Source: a virus. Taken from it: a stretch of 48,970 nucleotides of DNA. Below, in pieces: positions 3,896 to 32,331 of the stretch; within the stretch, counting starts at the first letter, position 1; the number at the start of each line of letters is the position of its first letter. The translations under genes were made by a program, and so were the position numbers. The stretch spans positions 1 to 48,970 of the IMG/VR virus record IMGVR_UViG_3300037493_002279. The stretch is one strand, 5' to 3'. Under the pieces are notes generated by a model. The model ran no database searches and was not told the origin of the DNA. It saw nothing but the letters and a program-made list of their open reading frames with translations.

Positions 3896-5116
3896 ATGTC
3901 ATATAACAGCCCCTTCACAGGAAACGTAGTCCAGCCGACGGACGTTTCCTATCGCTACATAGAACTAAACTCGGATCTACAGCTAGAGTGGCCAATTAAC
4001 GGCACCACGGCTGACGGTGCGGCTGCGAGGATTATGGACGTTCTGCCTGACCAGGCTGGATGGGACTTGATCATGCCGCCGGCGAATCAGACATCGGTAG
4101 GCACTGATGCGATGATTTACAACGTAGGCAATTTTAGTTTTACGGTAACCGACTTTGACGGCGGGACTATTGTTGCGATTGCCCCTGGAGAAGCTCAGTA
4201 CATCTACGTAACAGACAATGCTGACGAGGCCGGCACCTGGAACGTTTTTCAATTCGGCGCCGGAACATCATCGGCTGATGCGGCAGTACTAGCTGGGTAC
4301 GGCTTAAAGGCTATCTCAACGACCTTAAACCAGTCGCATAGTACGGTAACCTTCTCATCTAACTACACGGCTGTGGCGGCTGACAGGGCCTCATGCTACA
4401 TCTGGAACGGCGGCGCTGGTACGTTTACCCTACCTACGCCTGCCTCCCTGGGCAACGATTGGTTTGTATTGGTGCGCAATGGAGGAACCGGTTCGTTAGC
4501 GGTTACCCCGGCGAGTGGAAATATTAACGACGTTGCATCGGTTAGCTTGCAGCCTGCCGACTCTTGCTTTGTGTGCTGCTCTGGAACGGCGTATTTTACG
4601 GTCGGCTTGGGTAAGGTGTCGCAGTTTAACTTCACGCAGTTAACGAAGCTGGTAACAAACGGCGCCTATACATTGACCTCTGCTGAGGCCGCTAATGTTG
4701 TCCAGAAGTATATTGGAACATTAACCGGCGCTGTGACGGTAGAAATCCCGCAGACGGTGCAGGTTTATTACATCTCTAACCAAACCACGGACCCTGGCCC
4801 TTACGATATTACCTTTACGACTGGCGTGGCTGGCTCTAATACGGCGATTGTGCCTGCTGGGAACCAGGTTATTTTGTTATGTGACTCGGTAAATATTTAT
4901 AACGCAACAACGATTAGTGCCGGCGCAAGCATTTCGTCTTTGTCTGACGGGACGGTTGTTAACCCATCCTTAAACTTTTCTTCTGAGACAAACACTGGCA
5001 TGTACCGGCCAGGTTCTGGGGAGATCGGCTGGTCTATCCTTGGGGTAAACGAGATGACCTTAGCGGCCTCAGGTTTAACTATTCCTAGCGGTATTGCTGG
5101 TGGTGTCTTCACATGA
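3896..5116 (+). CDS. Tail fibre-like virion protein
   Basis: The 406-residue protein is rich in Thr, Ser, Val and Gly and appears wholly beta-structured, with no enzyme motif. The C-terminal 70 residues contain NPSLNFSSETNTGMYRPGSG and NEMTLAASGL, a pattern typical of phage tail-fibre terminal regions. Residues about 140-330 hold two or three related beta units (TFTLPTPASLGNDW and TVEIPQTVQVYY are comparable). It overlaps the nozzle gene by ATGA. Whether it forms fibres, a tail knob or an adaptor-bound appendage cannot be decided. Confidence 0.65.
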   Translation: MSYNSPFTGNVVQPTDVSYRYIELNSDLQLEWPINGTTADGAAARIMDVLPDQAGWDLIMPPANQTSVGTDAMIYNVGNFSFTVTDFDGGTIVAIAPGEAQYIYVTDNADEAGTWNVFQFGAGTSSADAAVLAGYGLKAISTTLNQSHSTVTFSSNYTAVAADRASCYIWNGGAGTFTLPTPASLGNDWFVLVRNGGTGSLAVTPASGNINDVASVSLQPADSCFVCCSGTAYFTVGLGKVSQFNFTQLTKLVTNGAYTLTSAEAANVVQKYIGTLTGAVTVEIPQTVQVYYISNQTTDPGPYDITFTTGVAGSNTAIVPAGNQVILLCDSVNIYNATTISAGASISSLSDGTVVNPSLNFSSETNTGMYRPGSGEIGWSILGVNEMTLAASGLTIPSGIAGGVFT

Positions 5117-28214: not shown

Positions 28215-28448
28215 ATGAAGCGCCATGCATTGTTAGACCATTTGATTGAGAATCGTTGGGCAGATGGTGACCGGGACCTGGTAGAGCTGCTAGACGTGTC
28301 ACGGTCCACGATCAGCAAGATCCGGTGCCGTAATGTGCCAGTGAACCCTACCCATATCCTCAGTATCTATGACGCGACGAACCTGAGCATTGACGAAATT
28401 AGGGGGCTCATTGACAAGGCATCGAAGGAGACAAATGATGAAAAGTGA
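28215..28448 (+). CDS. Small HTH regulator
   Basis: The 77-residue protein has the helix-turn-helix DLVELLDVSRSTISKIRC followed by a helix with HILSIYDATNLSIDEI, a common layout of short phage repressor-like or Cro-like proteins. As nearly the last gene before the non-coding locus, it could regulate the promoter at 28631. That link is inferred. Confidence 0.7.
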   Translation: MKRHALLDHLIENRWADGDRDLVELLDVSRSTISKIRCRNVPVNPTHILSIYDATNLSIDEIRGLIDKASKETNDEK

Positions 28449-28530
28449 TACAATGAAACCTAAGCTGTGGGAGGTTGTAGTGGCAACAATATCAATTGTG
28501 CTACTGTTCCTTCTTGCTGCACTACTTTAA
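28435..28530 (+). CDS. Single-pass membrane microprotein
   Basis: A 31-codon frame with tandem ATG starts lies inside the end of the regulator gene, behind GAAGGAG. The product is a short charged start followed by one hydrophobic helix (VVVATISIVLLFLLAALL). Its function is unknown. Confidence 0.4.
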   Translation: MMKSDTMKPKLWEVVVATISIVLLFLLAALL

Positions 28531-28630
28531 CCTTTAAGGCATCCTACAAGGGAGCCTTATAGGCTACCGGTGGTCTGGAGTTTGCCTTGGTCGGTTTCGC
28601 CAGGCCTGACACCCCGGAAAGACGGGGGAC

Positions 28631-28660
28631 TTGACAGTATTAGTCTGGGCGTATTAATAT
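28631..28660 (+). promoter_or_regulatory. Promoter ahead of the structured RNA
   Basis: A perfect TTGACA (28631-28636) is followed by TAATAT (28655-28660) after 18 bases; overlapping alternatives at 15-16 bases also exist. The expected transcript start is near 28667, two bases before the first hairpin. Confidence 0.5.
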
Positions 28661-28666
28661 TCACAC

Positions 28667-28813
28667 ATCTGTTTGGGTGGTGCCGAACAGTAGTTTCCAA
28701 CAACGAGAGAATGCCCTGATAAGGCAGGCTTCGTCAAAAGCTTCGAGAATATGGTTGGACATACTCTCATAAGCGGCAAACCAAGCCTAAAGCCTACTTA
28801 TCAGGGCTTTTTT
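28667..28813 (+). ncRNA. Candidate structured small RNA
   Basis: About 147 bases run from the predicted start to a T tract. Hairpin 1 is CTGTTTGG/CCGAACAG (28669-28690, one G-U pair, 6-base loop). A long stem joins GCCCTGATAAG (28713-28723) to CTTATCAGGGC (28797-28807) and continues as AGGCTT (28726-28731) with AAGCCT (28790-28795). It encloses GAGAATATG/CATACTCTC (28745-28768, one mismatch, 6-base loop). Six T residues follow. No known RNA family is recognised. It could be a trans-acting small RNA, a cis antitermination element (compare HK022 put RNAs) or part of a packaging signal. Confidence 0.45.
28713..28813 (+). terminator. Terminator formed by the long closing stem of the RNA
   Basis: The 11-base stem GCCCTGATAAG/CTTATCAGGGC ends directly at TTTTTT (28808-28813). 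The enclosed 73 bases hold other hairpins, so this is an unusually large-looped intrinsic terminator. It would separate early from packaging transcription unless read through. Confidence 0.5.
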
Positions 28814-29003
28814 ATTGGTGCCGCGTACCCGTCAGGGCGCGTTAGTAAATGGTCTGCATGGACTGAACCCGAGAATCACCGGCTGCCGATTCACCCCGGA
28901 GCAAGCCGAGAAGCCTGTCAGTGAGGGACTTCGCAAGATAAGAGGGCAAGTGGTGAGACAAACCTCTTATCGATGAATCGCTGCCATCTTGGGTTGCTAG
29001 ACT

Positions 29004-29303
29004 ATGAGACAGGATCTCTTAGTTGGGCAGGGTAGACTAGCTAGGCTTCGCAAGAGGTTGGCTAATCACCCTTGGGTAAACTATGGGACTTTTATGGCTA
29101 CTTTTTACATGATGTATGTTGCAGGAACGGCAAGACCTAAGAAGGTCCATGCTACGCTAGAGTCAGCACGGGAAGCAGTGAAGGCGTACAAGGAACAGGG
29201 CGGGACACGAGAGTGCTTCATTTTGGCGCCGATAGAGACGTTCGCAGGCCGGAAGATACTAACGATTAAGCCAAAGGTGACGGTGGAAGCCAGAGCCCAG
29301 TAA
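29004..29303 (+). CDS. Hypothetical small protein before the terminase genes
   Basis: ATG 29004 gives 99 residues, but the first 30 are Arg/Leu-rich and may be untranslated leader. ATG 29094 would give 69 residues starting MATFYMMYVAG. The conserved-looking part is strand-helix-strand (KKVHATLESAREAVKAYKEQ, RECFILAPIETFAG). The sequence CTTCGCAAGA occurs both here (29047) and in the upstream non-coding region (28929). The start choice is unresolved. Confidence 0.5.
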   Translation: MRQDLLVGQGRLARLRKRLANHPWVNYGTFMATFYMMYVAGTARPKKVHATLESAREAVKAYKEQGGTRECFILAPIETFAGRKILTIKPKVTVEARAQ

Positions 29304-29518: not shown

Positions 29519-30001
29519 ATGGCTAAGATGGGAAGACCCAGCATATACACAGACGAACTAGCGGCTACGATCCTCGGCAGGATCAGTAACGGCGAGTCGC
29601 TACGTAGTATCACGATGGAAGAGGGGATGCCGAACCCAGATACAATTTATGTGTGGTTGTTGAAAAGACCAGACTTTGCCGAGAATTACACGCGTGCACG
29701 GGAAGAGCAGGCCGACACTTTAGCTGACGAGATCCTAGCTATTGCTGACGAGACGCCTGACTCTGTGACTGATGAGAAGGGGATTAGCCGCACCGACTCT
29801 GGCTGGGTAACCTGGCAGCGGAACCGCGTTGACGCCAGGAAGTGGGTAGCCAGCAAGTTGAAGCCAAAGAAGTACGGCGACGCCTTGAAGGTCGGTGGGG
29901 ACAAGGATAACCCATTAGCGGTGACGGTGGGGACTGAGGTCTTCGACAGCGTGCTAGAGAACCTGGCGTTACAGAAACGACTGCAGAAGCCCAAAAAATG
30001 A
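29519..30001 (+). CDS. terS: Terminase small subunit
   Basis: The 160-residue product shows the common small-terminase layout. It starts GRPSIYTDELAATI, with an HTH region NGESLRSITMEEGMPNPDTI followed by YVWLLKRPDF, then YTRAREEQADTLADEILAIA and RKWVASKLKPKKYGD. TerS recognises phage DNA and feeds it to the large subunit. An AAAGGAG site precedes the ATG and the stop overlaps terL by ATGA. Confidence 0.9.
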   Translation: MAKMGRPSIYTDELAATILGRISNGESLRSITMEEGMPNPDTIYVWLLKRPDFAENYTRAREEQADTLADEILAIADETPDSVTDEKGISRTDSGWVTWQRNRVDARKWVASKLKPKKYGDALKVGGDKDNPLAVTVGTEVFDSVLENLALQKRLQKPKK

Positions 30002-32331
30002 GTGACCTGGCCGAGATACTGGGGGACGACAAGGTTCGAGCTCAGTTCATGGCAATGCCCCCGGCACAACGGGCGGCGTATGGCTGGAGGATGCAGTGGC
30101 TATCTAAGGCCCACAGGCATCAGATATTACCTACTGGGGACTGGTGGAGCGTCTGGCTGTTATTAGCGGGGCGTGGTGCCGGCAAGACCCGCACGGCGGC
30201 TGAGCAGCTTGCCTGGTGGGCCTGGACCGAGCCCAACACCCGATGGCTAGTCGGGGCGCCAACGAGCGCTGACGTGCGTGCTACATGCTTTGAGGGGGAT
30301 AGCGGCCTGATGTCAGTGATCCCCCCGATTCTCATTAAAGACTATAACCGGGCCTTCCACGAGATCACGCTAACTAACGGGAGCTTGATCAAAGGGATCC
30401 CGGCGTCCGAGCCCGAGCGCTTCCGCGGTCCGCAGTTCCACGGTGGCTGGTGCGACGAGTTGGCGGCCTGGGACTACCTCGACGCCGCCTGGGACCAGAT
30501 TAACTTCAGCGTCCGGCTCGGTAAGCATACCAGGCTGATCTGCACGACTACCCCGCGGCCGAAGGACTTGATCGTGGAGCTTATTGGCCGTGACGGTGAC
30601 GACGTTGTTGTTACAACGGCATCGACCTACGACAACATAGCGAACCTGTCGAGTAATTTTCAGAAACAGATCATGCAGTACGAGGGGACGAAGCTCGGCC
30701 GGCAGGAGATCTACGCCGAGATTCTGGATCCTGAGGAGTCTGGCATCGTCAAGCGGGAGATGTTCAAGCTCTGGCCTAACGGCAAGGAATTCCCTAAATT
30801 TGAGTACATCATTCAGAGCTACGACTGCGCCTATACGGAGAAGACGGTCAACGACCCGACGGCCTGCATTACTTTCGGCATGTTTAAACCGCTGGACGGT
30901 CCAATGTCCGTGATGGTGATCGACGCCTGGCAGGACCGGCTGCAGTACCCCGACCTGCGCCCGAAGGTCATTGAGGAGTACGACACGATCTTCGGCGAGG
31001 GCAAAGAAAAGAAGCGGGTTGACCTGATCCTAGTCGAGGACAAGAGCGCAGGCATCAGTCTTATACAAGACCTGCAACGAGCCCACCTGCCGGTCCGAGC
31101 CTACAACCCTGGCCGCGCTGACAAGATGCAGCGCCTGAACATTGTCTCCAACATTATCGCTCGGGGCCGTGTCTGGATCCCTGAGAGCAGCATCCGTAAG
31201 GGCTTCGTGCGCGACTGGGCCGAGGGCTTCGTCAGCCAGATATGCTCATTCCCAGAGGCCACGCATGATGATTTTGTGGACGCCTGCCTTGTCGGTGAGA
31301 CGTTAATTCAAATGGCTGACGGCACAACAAAGCGCATTGACGCAGTGGTTGTGGGCGACATTGTATCTACACCCGATGGATCGCAACCTGTTACGGCTGT
31401 GTTCAGTAACGGCATCAAAGAGATATGGGAGGTCGATGCTGGCGTTAAGCTGTACGGCACTGGGAACCATAACGTGATGACAAACACTGGATGGATACAC
31501 ATTGACAAGCTGATACCAAACGTGGATACTGTGTATACGTATCAACAGGAGGAATCATGGTATTCAGAAGCAAAGAAGGTGTGGCCGTCGAAACAGTTGT
31601 CTTCAACGGCAAGAGATATAACCGTTACCCTGAAGGCAATAATGCGGCACATCGCCGATACTTTTCAAGGTCTGGTGCAAGGCTTCACAGGGATGTCTGG
31701 ATTCACCACAACGGCATCATCCCAGACGGCCACCATGTCCACCACATCGACGGGGACACAGGTAACAACGACATCGCAAACCTTAAGTGCTTGCCAGCAA
31801 GACAACATAGGGACGAGCACAAAGCAGAGCTATCCGCACGAAATAGATCAGACAAGCAATTACGCCACCTCGAAAGCATCAGGGGTAAGGCCGCTGAATG
31901 GCACAGTTCAGCAGAAGGCGTGGCTTGGCATAAGAAGCATGTCGCTGAGTCTTTGGCAAAGGCTTGGAGTAAGCCAAAGGTTTATCCTGAGTTGGCTTTC
32001 ACCTGTAAGTGGTGCGGCAAGCAAGGGACTGCAAAGGTTGCTCGGAAGGTTCTTTGTGGCTCAAGCTGCCAAACAGCAGAGTCAAAGTTCCGCCTTGGTA
32101 AGAGCAGTCACGAACACCCATACCATGCGGCAAGTGTACGATCTAACGGTGGCAAATGAGCATTGTTACTACGCAAACGGTGTTTTAGTTCACAACTGCA
32201 CCCAGGCTCTGCGTTACCTGCGCGACGCCGGCTGGCTAGAGATCGACGCACCGCCGCGGGATGACTATGACGAAGAGGACCTGATCGACTCAGGCATGAT
32301 GAGCACGCGTGTTAACCCTTACGCCGCATAG
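29998..32331 (+). CDS. terL: Terminase large subunit with intein
   Basis: The frame codes 777 residues; removing the intein (residues 430-733) leaves a normal 473-residue terminase. The ATPase has Walker A GRGAGKT at 58-64, Walker B-type WCDELAAW with D153/E154, and the coupling segment TTTPRP at about 183-188. The nuclease has D276 in YDCAYT, E347/D348 in LVEDKSAG, and HDDFVDA at 423-429. The intein enters immediately after HDDFVDA; after splicing the junction reads VDA-CTQALRYL. The unspliced protein would have a disrupted nuclease site, so packaging depends on splicing. Confidence 0.95.
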   Translation: MSDLAEILGDDKVRAQFMAMPPAQRAAYGWRMQWLSKAHRHQILPTGDWWSVWLLLAGRGAGKTRTAAEQLAWWAWTEPNTRWLVGAPTSADVRATCFEGDSGLMSVIPPILIKDYNRAFHEITLTNGSLIKGIPASEPERFRGPQFHGGWCDELAAWDYLDAAWDQINFSVRLGKHTRLICTTTPRPKDLIVELIGRDGDDVVVTTASTYDNIANLSSNFQKQIMQYEGTKLGRQEIYAEILDPEESGIVKREMFKLWPNGKEFPKFEYIIQSYDCAYTEKTVNDPTACITFGMFKPLDGPMSVMVIDAWQDRLQYPDLRPKVIEEYDTIFGEGKEKKRVDLILVEDKSAGISLIQDLQRAHLPVRAYNPGRADKMQRLNIVSNIIARGRVWIPESSIRKGFVRDWAEGFVSQICSFPEATHDDFVDACLVGETLIQMADGTTKRIDAVVVGDIVSTPDGSQPVTAVFSNGIKEIWEVDAGVKLYGTGNHNVMTNTGWIHIDKLIPNVDTVYTYQQEESWYSEAKKVWPSKQLSSTARDITVTLKAIMRHIADTFQGLVQGFTGMSGFTTTASSQTATMSTTSTGTQVTTTSQTLSACQQDNIGTSTKQSYPHEIDQTSNYATSKASGVRPLNGTVQQKAWLGIRSMSLSLWQRLGVSQRFILSWLSPVSGAASKGLQRLLGRFFVAQAAKQQSQSSALVRAVTNTHTMRQVYDLTVANEHCYYANGVLVHNCTQALRYLRDAGWLEIDAPPRDDYDEEDLIDSGMMSTRVNPYAA
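31285..32196 (+). mobile_element. Intein in terminase large subunit (304 residues)
   Basis: Block A is CLVGETLIQMADG, beginning at the splice-site Cys430. Block B is seen in GTGNHNVMT. Block F is YDLTVANEHCYYANG, and block G is VLVHN followed by Cys734, the +1 extein residue. These are the parts needed for class 1 protein splicing (N-S shift at Cys, Asn cyclisation, Cys +1). Between the blocks, about 200 residues are Ser/Thr/Gln-rich without domain similarity, because that DNA mainly encodes an HNH endonuclease in another frame. Confidence 0.92.
31557..32159 (+). CDS. HNH homing endonuclease nested in the intein in another frame
   Basis: The 200-residue protein has a full HNH homing-enzyme layout. 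It opens VFNGKRYNRYPEG, then ARLHRDVWIHHNGIIPDG, the HNH core VHHIDGDTGNNDIANLKCLP with H62/H63, N70/N71 and H84/H88, and a C-terminal zinc-like pattern C150-x2-C153 ... C167-x3-C171. Its frame differs from terL, which stays open across all 603 bases. AGGAGG lies five bases before its ATG, and TGA ends it at the start of intein block F. It presumably cuts intein-less terL alleles to spread the element. Confidence 0.88.
   Translation: MVFRSKEGVAVETVVFNGKRYNRYPEGNNAAHRRYFSRSGARLHRDVWIHHNGIIPDGHHVHHIDGDTGNNDIANLKCLPARQHRDEHKAELSARNRSDKQLRHLESIRGKAAEWHSSAEGVAWHKKHVAESLAKAWSKPKVYPELAFTCKWCGKQGTAKVARKVLCGSSCQTAESKFRLGKSSHEHPYHAASVRSNGGK

Follow-up and report, generated by a model that had tools for sequence, protein, structure and literature searches.

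A conserved structured small-RNA gene with a predicted promoter and terminator of its own in uncultured phages

In this work, we report that the uncultured virus record IMGVR_UViG_3300037493_002279, whose 48,970 bases constitute the window analysed here, almost certainly carries a real, conserved and structured RNA gene at 28667-28813 on the plus strand. The RNA, of about 147 nt and named RNA-1 here, has its start assigned from a promoter and its end from a T tract, and lies in noncoding sequence flanked by an HTH-regulator gene (28215-28448) and by terS (29519-30001), terL coming after terS. Comparison of related sequences strongly supports RNA-1 as a new gene for a structured small RNA, equipped with a promoter and a terminator of its own, and as far as Rfam and the present searches reach it is a new RNA family; covariation and the lack of any Rfam match both back this designation. 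The initial annotation of an RNA at 28661-28813 is right, and the case is stronger than first stated: the site holds, but the start lies near 28667 instead, and a second hairpin (28693-28704) and both long-range contacts had been missed from its list of elements.

Gene boundaries and secondary structure

The gene is preceded by a sigma-70-like promoter at 28631-28660 (+), which is composed of the perfect TTGACA element noticed at the outset (28631-28636), an 18-nt spacer and a TAATAT that ends at 28660, with the predicted start at about 28667. An equivalent site occurs at the same distance in most copies, about 8 nt 5′ of the first hairpin, P1. The promoter score reaches at least 9 of 12 in 33 of the 42 distinct copies; among 826 other placements 1.6% score as high, and among 420 shuffles 0.9%. 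At the other end, a T tract at 28808-28813 (+), also anticipated by the initial annotation, forms together with the closing stem an intrinsic terminator, and a run of at least five T is found in 42/42 distinct copies. Within the window alone, neither the promoter match (3 found, 1.8±1.7 expected) nor the terminator scan (1 found, 1.4 expected) exceeds chance; it is because their positions are conserved across the copies that both elements stand beyond it. From these conserved positions of its own promoter and terminator, RNA-1 is predicted to be a small RNA gene with intrinsic termination. When a filter for architecture only, using no sequence alignment (promoter of at least 9/12, a hairpin with a UGGY loop, the complement of that loop, a 9-bp perfect terminator and T5), was run over all collected loci, it returned 51 matches, each of which was on inspection RNA-1 or its relative in locus L261.

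A coding origin was rejected, no reading frame being common to the copies. As had been claimed, no frame competes in the window copy, in which all six frames contain stops; moreover, the copies, of 151-166 nt with flanks included, differ in length by non-multiples of three, and 21/42 lack an open forward frame. Upstream of the promoter, the 75 nt at 28566-28640 are nearly invariant among the close relatives of the window, more so than RNA-1 itself, and a part of this stretch (24 nt exact) also occurs in L033, there without RNA-1.

The fold of RNA-1 is 4.65 standard deviations more stable than 200 dinucleotide shuffles (z -4.65), none of which was equally stable, and a chance hairpin was rejected on this test, on the loop-pair counts and on the covariation described below. 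All of its elements lie on the plus strand. P1 (28669-28690), the 8-base-pair hairpin seen earlier at the predicted start, has the loop GTGGTG, whose GGU (28679-28681) takes part in the second long-range contact, and 6 of its 7 alignment pairs vary on both sides. It is followed by the J hairpin, GTT-TCCAAC-AAC (28693-28704), in which 3/3 stem pairs vary on both sides and whose hexaloop (28696-28701) is identified by loop-pairing counts as the partner of the P3 loop. The long closing stem that had been described is present, in interrupted form, as 11+2+5 pairs supported by folding and covariation, with its 5′ strand at 28713-28731 (28713-28723, 28724-28725 and 28727-28731) and its 3′ strand at 28783-28807, the latter containing a conserved UAAR bulge (TAAA, 28788-28791). 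Enclosed within this stem are the joining segment CGTCAAAA (28732-28739), conserved as invariant alignment columns; the inner hairpin P3 (28740-28774), which corresponds to the internal hairpin of the initial annotation and rests on folding, loop pairing and covariation, with the hexaloop GTTGGA (28754-28759) as the partner of the J loop; and a second conserved joining segment, GGCAAACC (28775-28782), of which the ACC at 28780-28782 partners the P1 loop. A version of the fold proposed by RNAalifold, pairing GGCUU with a second AAGCC, was set aside because P2b covaries between GGC/GCC and AGC/GCU in L202, L238, L240 and L241 (by eye); the chosen version costs L001, L002 and L015 one pair each.

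Relatives, covariation and long-range contacts

RNA-1 was found in 69 other viral contigs, all of them uncultured, giving 47 distinct sequences including that of the window. The 75 loci with relatives of terS, the starting set for the collection, yielded copies in which the first hairpin is altered on both arms yet still paired, and RNA-1 was detected in only 16 of them, many being too short upstream to tell. A 22-base core motif led to 44 viral contigs and a looser motif to 60, and a covariance model (A1, R1) built from 23 sequences scored the window copy, itself among the training sequences, at 152 bits over 28665-28818. The 60 complete copies, from the window and 59 contigs, comprise 42 distinct sequences; the counts leave out the partial copies L083 and L099, repeat retrievals of the same contigs, and weak opposite-strand echoes of 17-26 bits at the same places. 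A later scan with the start motif of T3, one type of the downstream element treated below, added ten records and five distinct sequences. Exactly one copy per record was present in 15/15 records searched.

Beyond these contigs, no true copy was recovered. The core motif had one site in 84,980 prokaryotic genomes (L236), with neither a model match nor a visible fold; blastn with four RNA-1 variants (E up to 1) retrieved no RNA-1 from 50,697 phage records, two 29-base pieces that it listed being taken as chance, and the window copy (blastn, E up to 0.01) had no match among plasmids. The covariance model found nothing credible in the phage records MW202484 (part) and MW202545. The pattern GGGTGGTGCCG...GGCTTCGTC hit mostly chance sites, as among 18 new stretches only that of L126 was RNA-1. 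An Rfam scan, suggested in the initial annotation, fits a new RNA: Rfam 15, with 4,227 families, had no match in the whole window, the only signal in 28400-29050 being asX2 on the minus strand (E 2.5, 15.4 bits versus a cut-off of 70), and none at RNA-1 in the other loci scanned. No description of RNA-1 was found in the open-licence literature, to which the search was limited.

Compensatory changes in homologs, which had been named beforehand as a check, are abundant. Across the 42 distinct copies, both-sided change occurs at 31 of 45 pairs, and covariation is seen in each of P1, the J hairpin, the closing stem and P3. Standard pairs fill 93.6% of 1,889 pair cells, versus 73.3±0.7% in shuffled alignments and 29-47% with the partners slid; these nested counts lean towards the model, to which the alignment was fitted. 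No pairing was modelled for the loop-loop columns, and in the J-P3 helix, which thus lies outside the alignment model, 6/6 pairs vary on both sides. At least six Watson-Crick pairs connect the J region with the P3 loop in 38/42 copies; when the two regions are taken from different copies, 104 of 1,722 combinations reach this number. The exceptions are L012, with only four loop-loop pairs, and L087, L107 and L222, with only five Watson-Crick pairs, of which L087 and L107 reach seven once G-U is counted. The five distinct sequences found later all have perfect loop-loop pairing: for four of them a script gave 6 (3-5 for cross combinations), and that of L263, which the script could not parse, was read by eye as CAAGAC/GTCTTG. 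The J loops vary even within the near group of the window, where TCCAAC, CAATAC, TACAGG and GGTAGG all occur. The sole clearly broken loop pair, in L012 (1615-1767), combines a J loop like that of L011 with a P3 loop like that of L007, and this copy is possibly a mosaic of two relatives, either a recombinant or a mixed assembly.

The second contact, between the P1 loop GGU and the ACC inside the closing stem, is invariant in 42/42 copies and so shows no covariation among them. Variation that supports it comes from a small number of observations, namely L263, where GGC with GCC replaces GGU/ACC as a compensatory change (by eye; one case), and the reduced relative in L261, where a 7-bp version, TGGTAAC/GTTACCA, is kept with J and P3 lost. 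Taken together, the comparison of copies supports the predicted fold and gene boundaries of RNA-1, and is compatible with the hexaloop pair being either an intramolecular or an intermolecular contact.

Neighbouring genes, the downstream element and mode of action

In the 25 loci charted, terS lies downstream of RNA-1 in nine and is not seen within 4.5 kb downstream in 16 (some flanks being short), and terL lies directly upstream in five (L111, L198, L096, L100 and L090), so that terminase genes adjoin RNA-1 in 14 loci and the neighbourhood is not random, a point against action in trans. In L097, L108, L112 and in part L202, genes for ParB, a helicase or a primase lie downstream of RNA-1, and a recombination gene of the exonuclease/Erf type occurs near it on the opposite strand; in L182 a replication-initiation gene stands beside it; and over 3.3 kb downstream in L202, gene calls fall on the opposite strand. 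RNA-1 occurs with at least two large-terminase clusters and also at loci with no terminase seen nearby, and the 25 loci share no conserved same-strand downstream gene. RNA-1 therefore tends to the borders of transcription units and is tied to no single gene. These loci weaken two of the three roles first suggested: the variable downstream genes and the opposite-strand genes of L202 argue against put-like antitermination, and a packaging RNA finds no specific link, since terS is downstream in only nine loci and others lie beside recombination or replication genes. The third role, regulation of host or phage RNA, is a possibility. In the window, TerL (gene at 29998-32331; 777 aa) contains an inserted intein-like sequence, matched by Vint/Hint at 429-501 and by Intein_splicing at 463-733 (E 9.6e-9, just below the curated cut-off); the relative in L014 has a called length of 473 aa.

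In most loci, one of several conserved noncoding elements (types T1, T2 and T3, which look unrelated to each other) comes directly after the T tract. This element, RNA-2, is in the window of type T1, at 28823-29090 (+), delimited by conservation with its end estimated from the alignment, and is related to those of L136 and L239; in L092, L126, L096 and L105, RNA-2 comes after a small ORF. The T3 start motif occurs in 22 contigs, with RNA-1 directly adjacent in 20, about 500 nt off in L263, and in the reduced form in L261. The spacer in L263, between RNA-1 (4460-4613) and T3 (3937-3960), partly resembles by eye an ORF of AP2/homing-endonuclease type. The reduced relative in L261 (8674-8791) comprises a promoter, a P1 with a TGGTAAC loop and a different long terminator hairpin that holds GTTACCA, followed by T3. 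RNA-2 may be a second structured RNA, and T2 alone has both-sided change at 7 of 48 pairs (7 sequences). We do not regard such a structure as proven, because the folding energy of the 230 nt downstream equals that of the upstream stretch, with no excess stability (mean z -0.64; 3/33 below -2).

Since the neighbouring genes differ from phage to phage, trans action is favoured, and we propose that RNA-1 is a phage small RNA that stands alone and acts in trans, a reading to which the sequences lend slightly better than even credence. The host sigma-70 RNA polymerase would start about 2 nt 5′ of P1, and the nascent RNA would fold compactly, held by two loop contacts, one of 6 bp between the J and P3 hexaloops and the other between the GGU of the P1 loop and the ACC inside the closing stem. 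The closing stem and the U tract would then end transcription, leaving a product with a hairpin at either end that is presumably long-lived, and the invariant unpaired core (CGUCAAA, GGCMAACC and UAAR) could be presented to a protein or an RNA-protein complex during infection. The stability, the partner and the trans action of RNA-1 are what we infer in this scheme.

A purely trans-acting RNA does not explain why RNA-2 directly follows RNA-1 in most loci, and this coupling is the main evidence for the main rival, a terminator switch for RNA-2, wherein RNA-1 is a cis-acting leader whose closing stem is a conditional terminator and the docking of the P1 and J loops selects between the short RNA and read-through. 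All 22 T3 contigs carrying RNA-1 or its reduced form upstream would accord with such a leader, as would the absence of room for a promoter of RNA-2 where the two are directly adjacent, and the retention in L261 of just the promoter, P1, loop docking and terminator, still immediately before RNA-2. However, the stem is in all copies a long and strong terminator, an alternative anti-terminator pairing is not evident short of a systematic search, the types of RNA-2 look unrelated and may be preceded by a small ORF, and a simple switch needs no six-base loop pair with an ever-changing sequence; we hence regard the leader as possible but improbable. A late-gene switch like that of lambda pR′, in which the terminator of a short RNA is read through by an antiterminator protein, would agree with the position in the window between the HTH-regulator gene and terS, but the 16 loci lacking terS within the charted distance, the reversed genes of L202 and a conserved core that would be superfluous for a simple terminator make it very unlikely.

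As to the loops themselves, RNA-1 could oligomerise through them into a multimeric scaffold, as is the case for phage packaging RNA and the ornate phage RNAs. A freely changing six-base loop-loop pair, such as differs here even among close relatives, would be expected of an intermolecular contact too, but covariation does not separate it from intramolecular pairing, self-pairing is the simplest reading because each molecule holds both partners, and there is no tie to one packaging system; we think oligomerisation unlikely. A broader and tentative idea, which we hold to be rather doubtful, is that RNA-1 represents a new phage RNA class in which the terminator stem doubles as a tertiary core and two upstream hairpins loop-dock into the terminator interior. 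One docking pair would change yet stay complementary, as if for self-recognition between RNA copies, and RNA-1 and the next element would make up a two-part noncoding locus spread between unrelated phages.

Comparison with known phage RNAs

Phages have been little explored for structured RNAs. RNA-1, which occurs in dozens of uncultured phages, is compact and strongly covarying, and its 150 nt suit probing, cryo-EM and NMR; it provides a concrete target for learning what use a phage makes of a stand-alone RNA. The loop pair, which changes but is nearly always matched, is in addition a natural test case for intramolecular versus intermolecular RNA recognition. The pRNA of phi29 is likewise a small phage RNA with complementary loops, which pair between molecules on the packaging motor; however, RNA-1 has no Rfam pRNA match and is not bound to one packaging system, and its phages carry terminase genes. 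In the pR′-6S RNA-tR′ region of lambda and in HK022 put, a short leader RNA and a terminator precede late genes, a layout resembled by RNA-1 with the late genes downstream of it in the window. The inconstant gene neighbourhood makes control of a single operon in the manner of put unlikely; moreover, the genes downstream of RNA-1 are not conserved, it lacks an Rfam match, and its fold is unlike that of put.

With the RNAs of AbiF-type, RNA-regulated abortive infection (PMC12373285), RNA-1 shares being a structured RNA encoded by a phage, but an Abi_2 (PF07751) protein was found in 0/13 records searched, several of which may be fragments. GOLLD and ROOL are described as structured noncoding phage RNAs with loop-loop contacts and tRNA neighbourhoods, env-120 ROOL being 659 nt and many GOLLD above 800 (PMC12286853). 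RNA-1, at about 150 nt, is far from a length above 600 nt and has no Rfam match to either, but resembles them in its loop-loop contacts, in the tRNA genes near it in four loci and in a tRNA-like match within one RNA-2. The tRNA genes are a tRNA-Thr just upstream of RNA-1 in L265 (167-243) and a tRNA-Leu upstream of it in L108 (5694-5778), L109 and L095. The tRNA-like match lies at the tip of a long stem in the T3 element of L258 (3327-3442, minus strand; 33.7 bits, E 0.0026), where ARAGORN called no tRNA, and inserts resembling that of L258 were seen by eye in L259 and L261.
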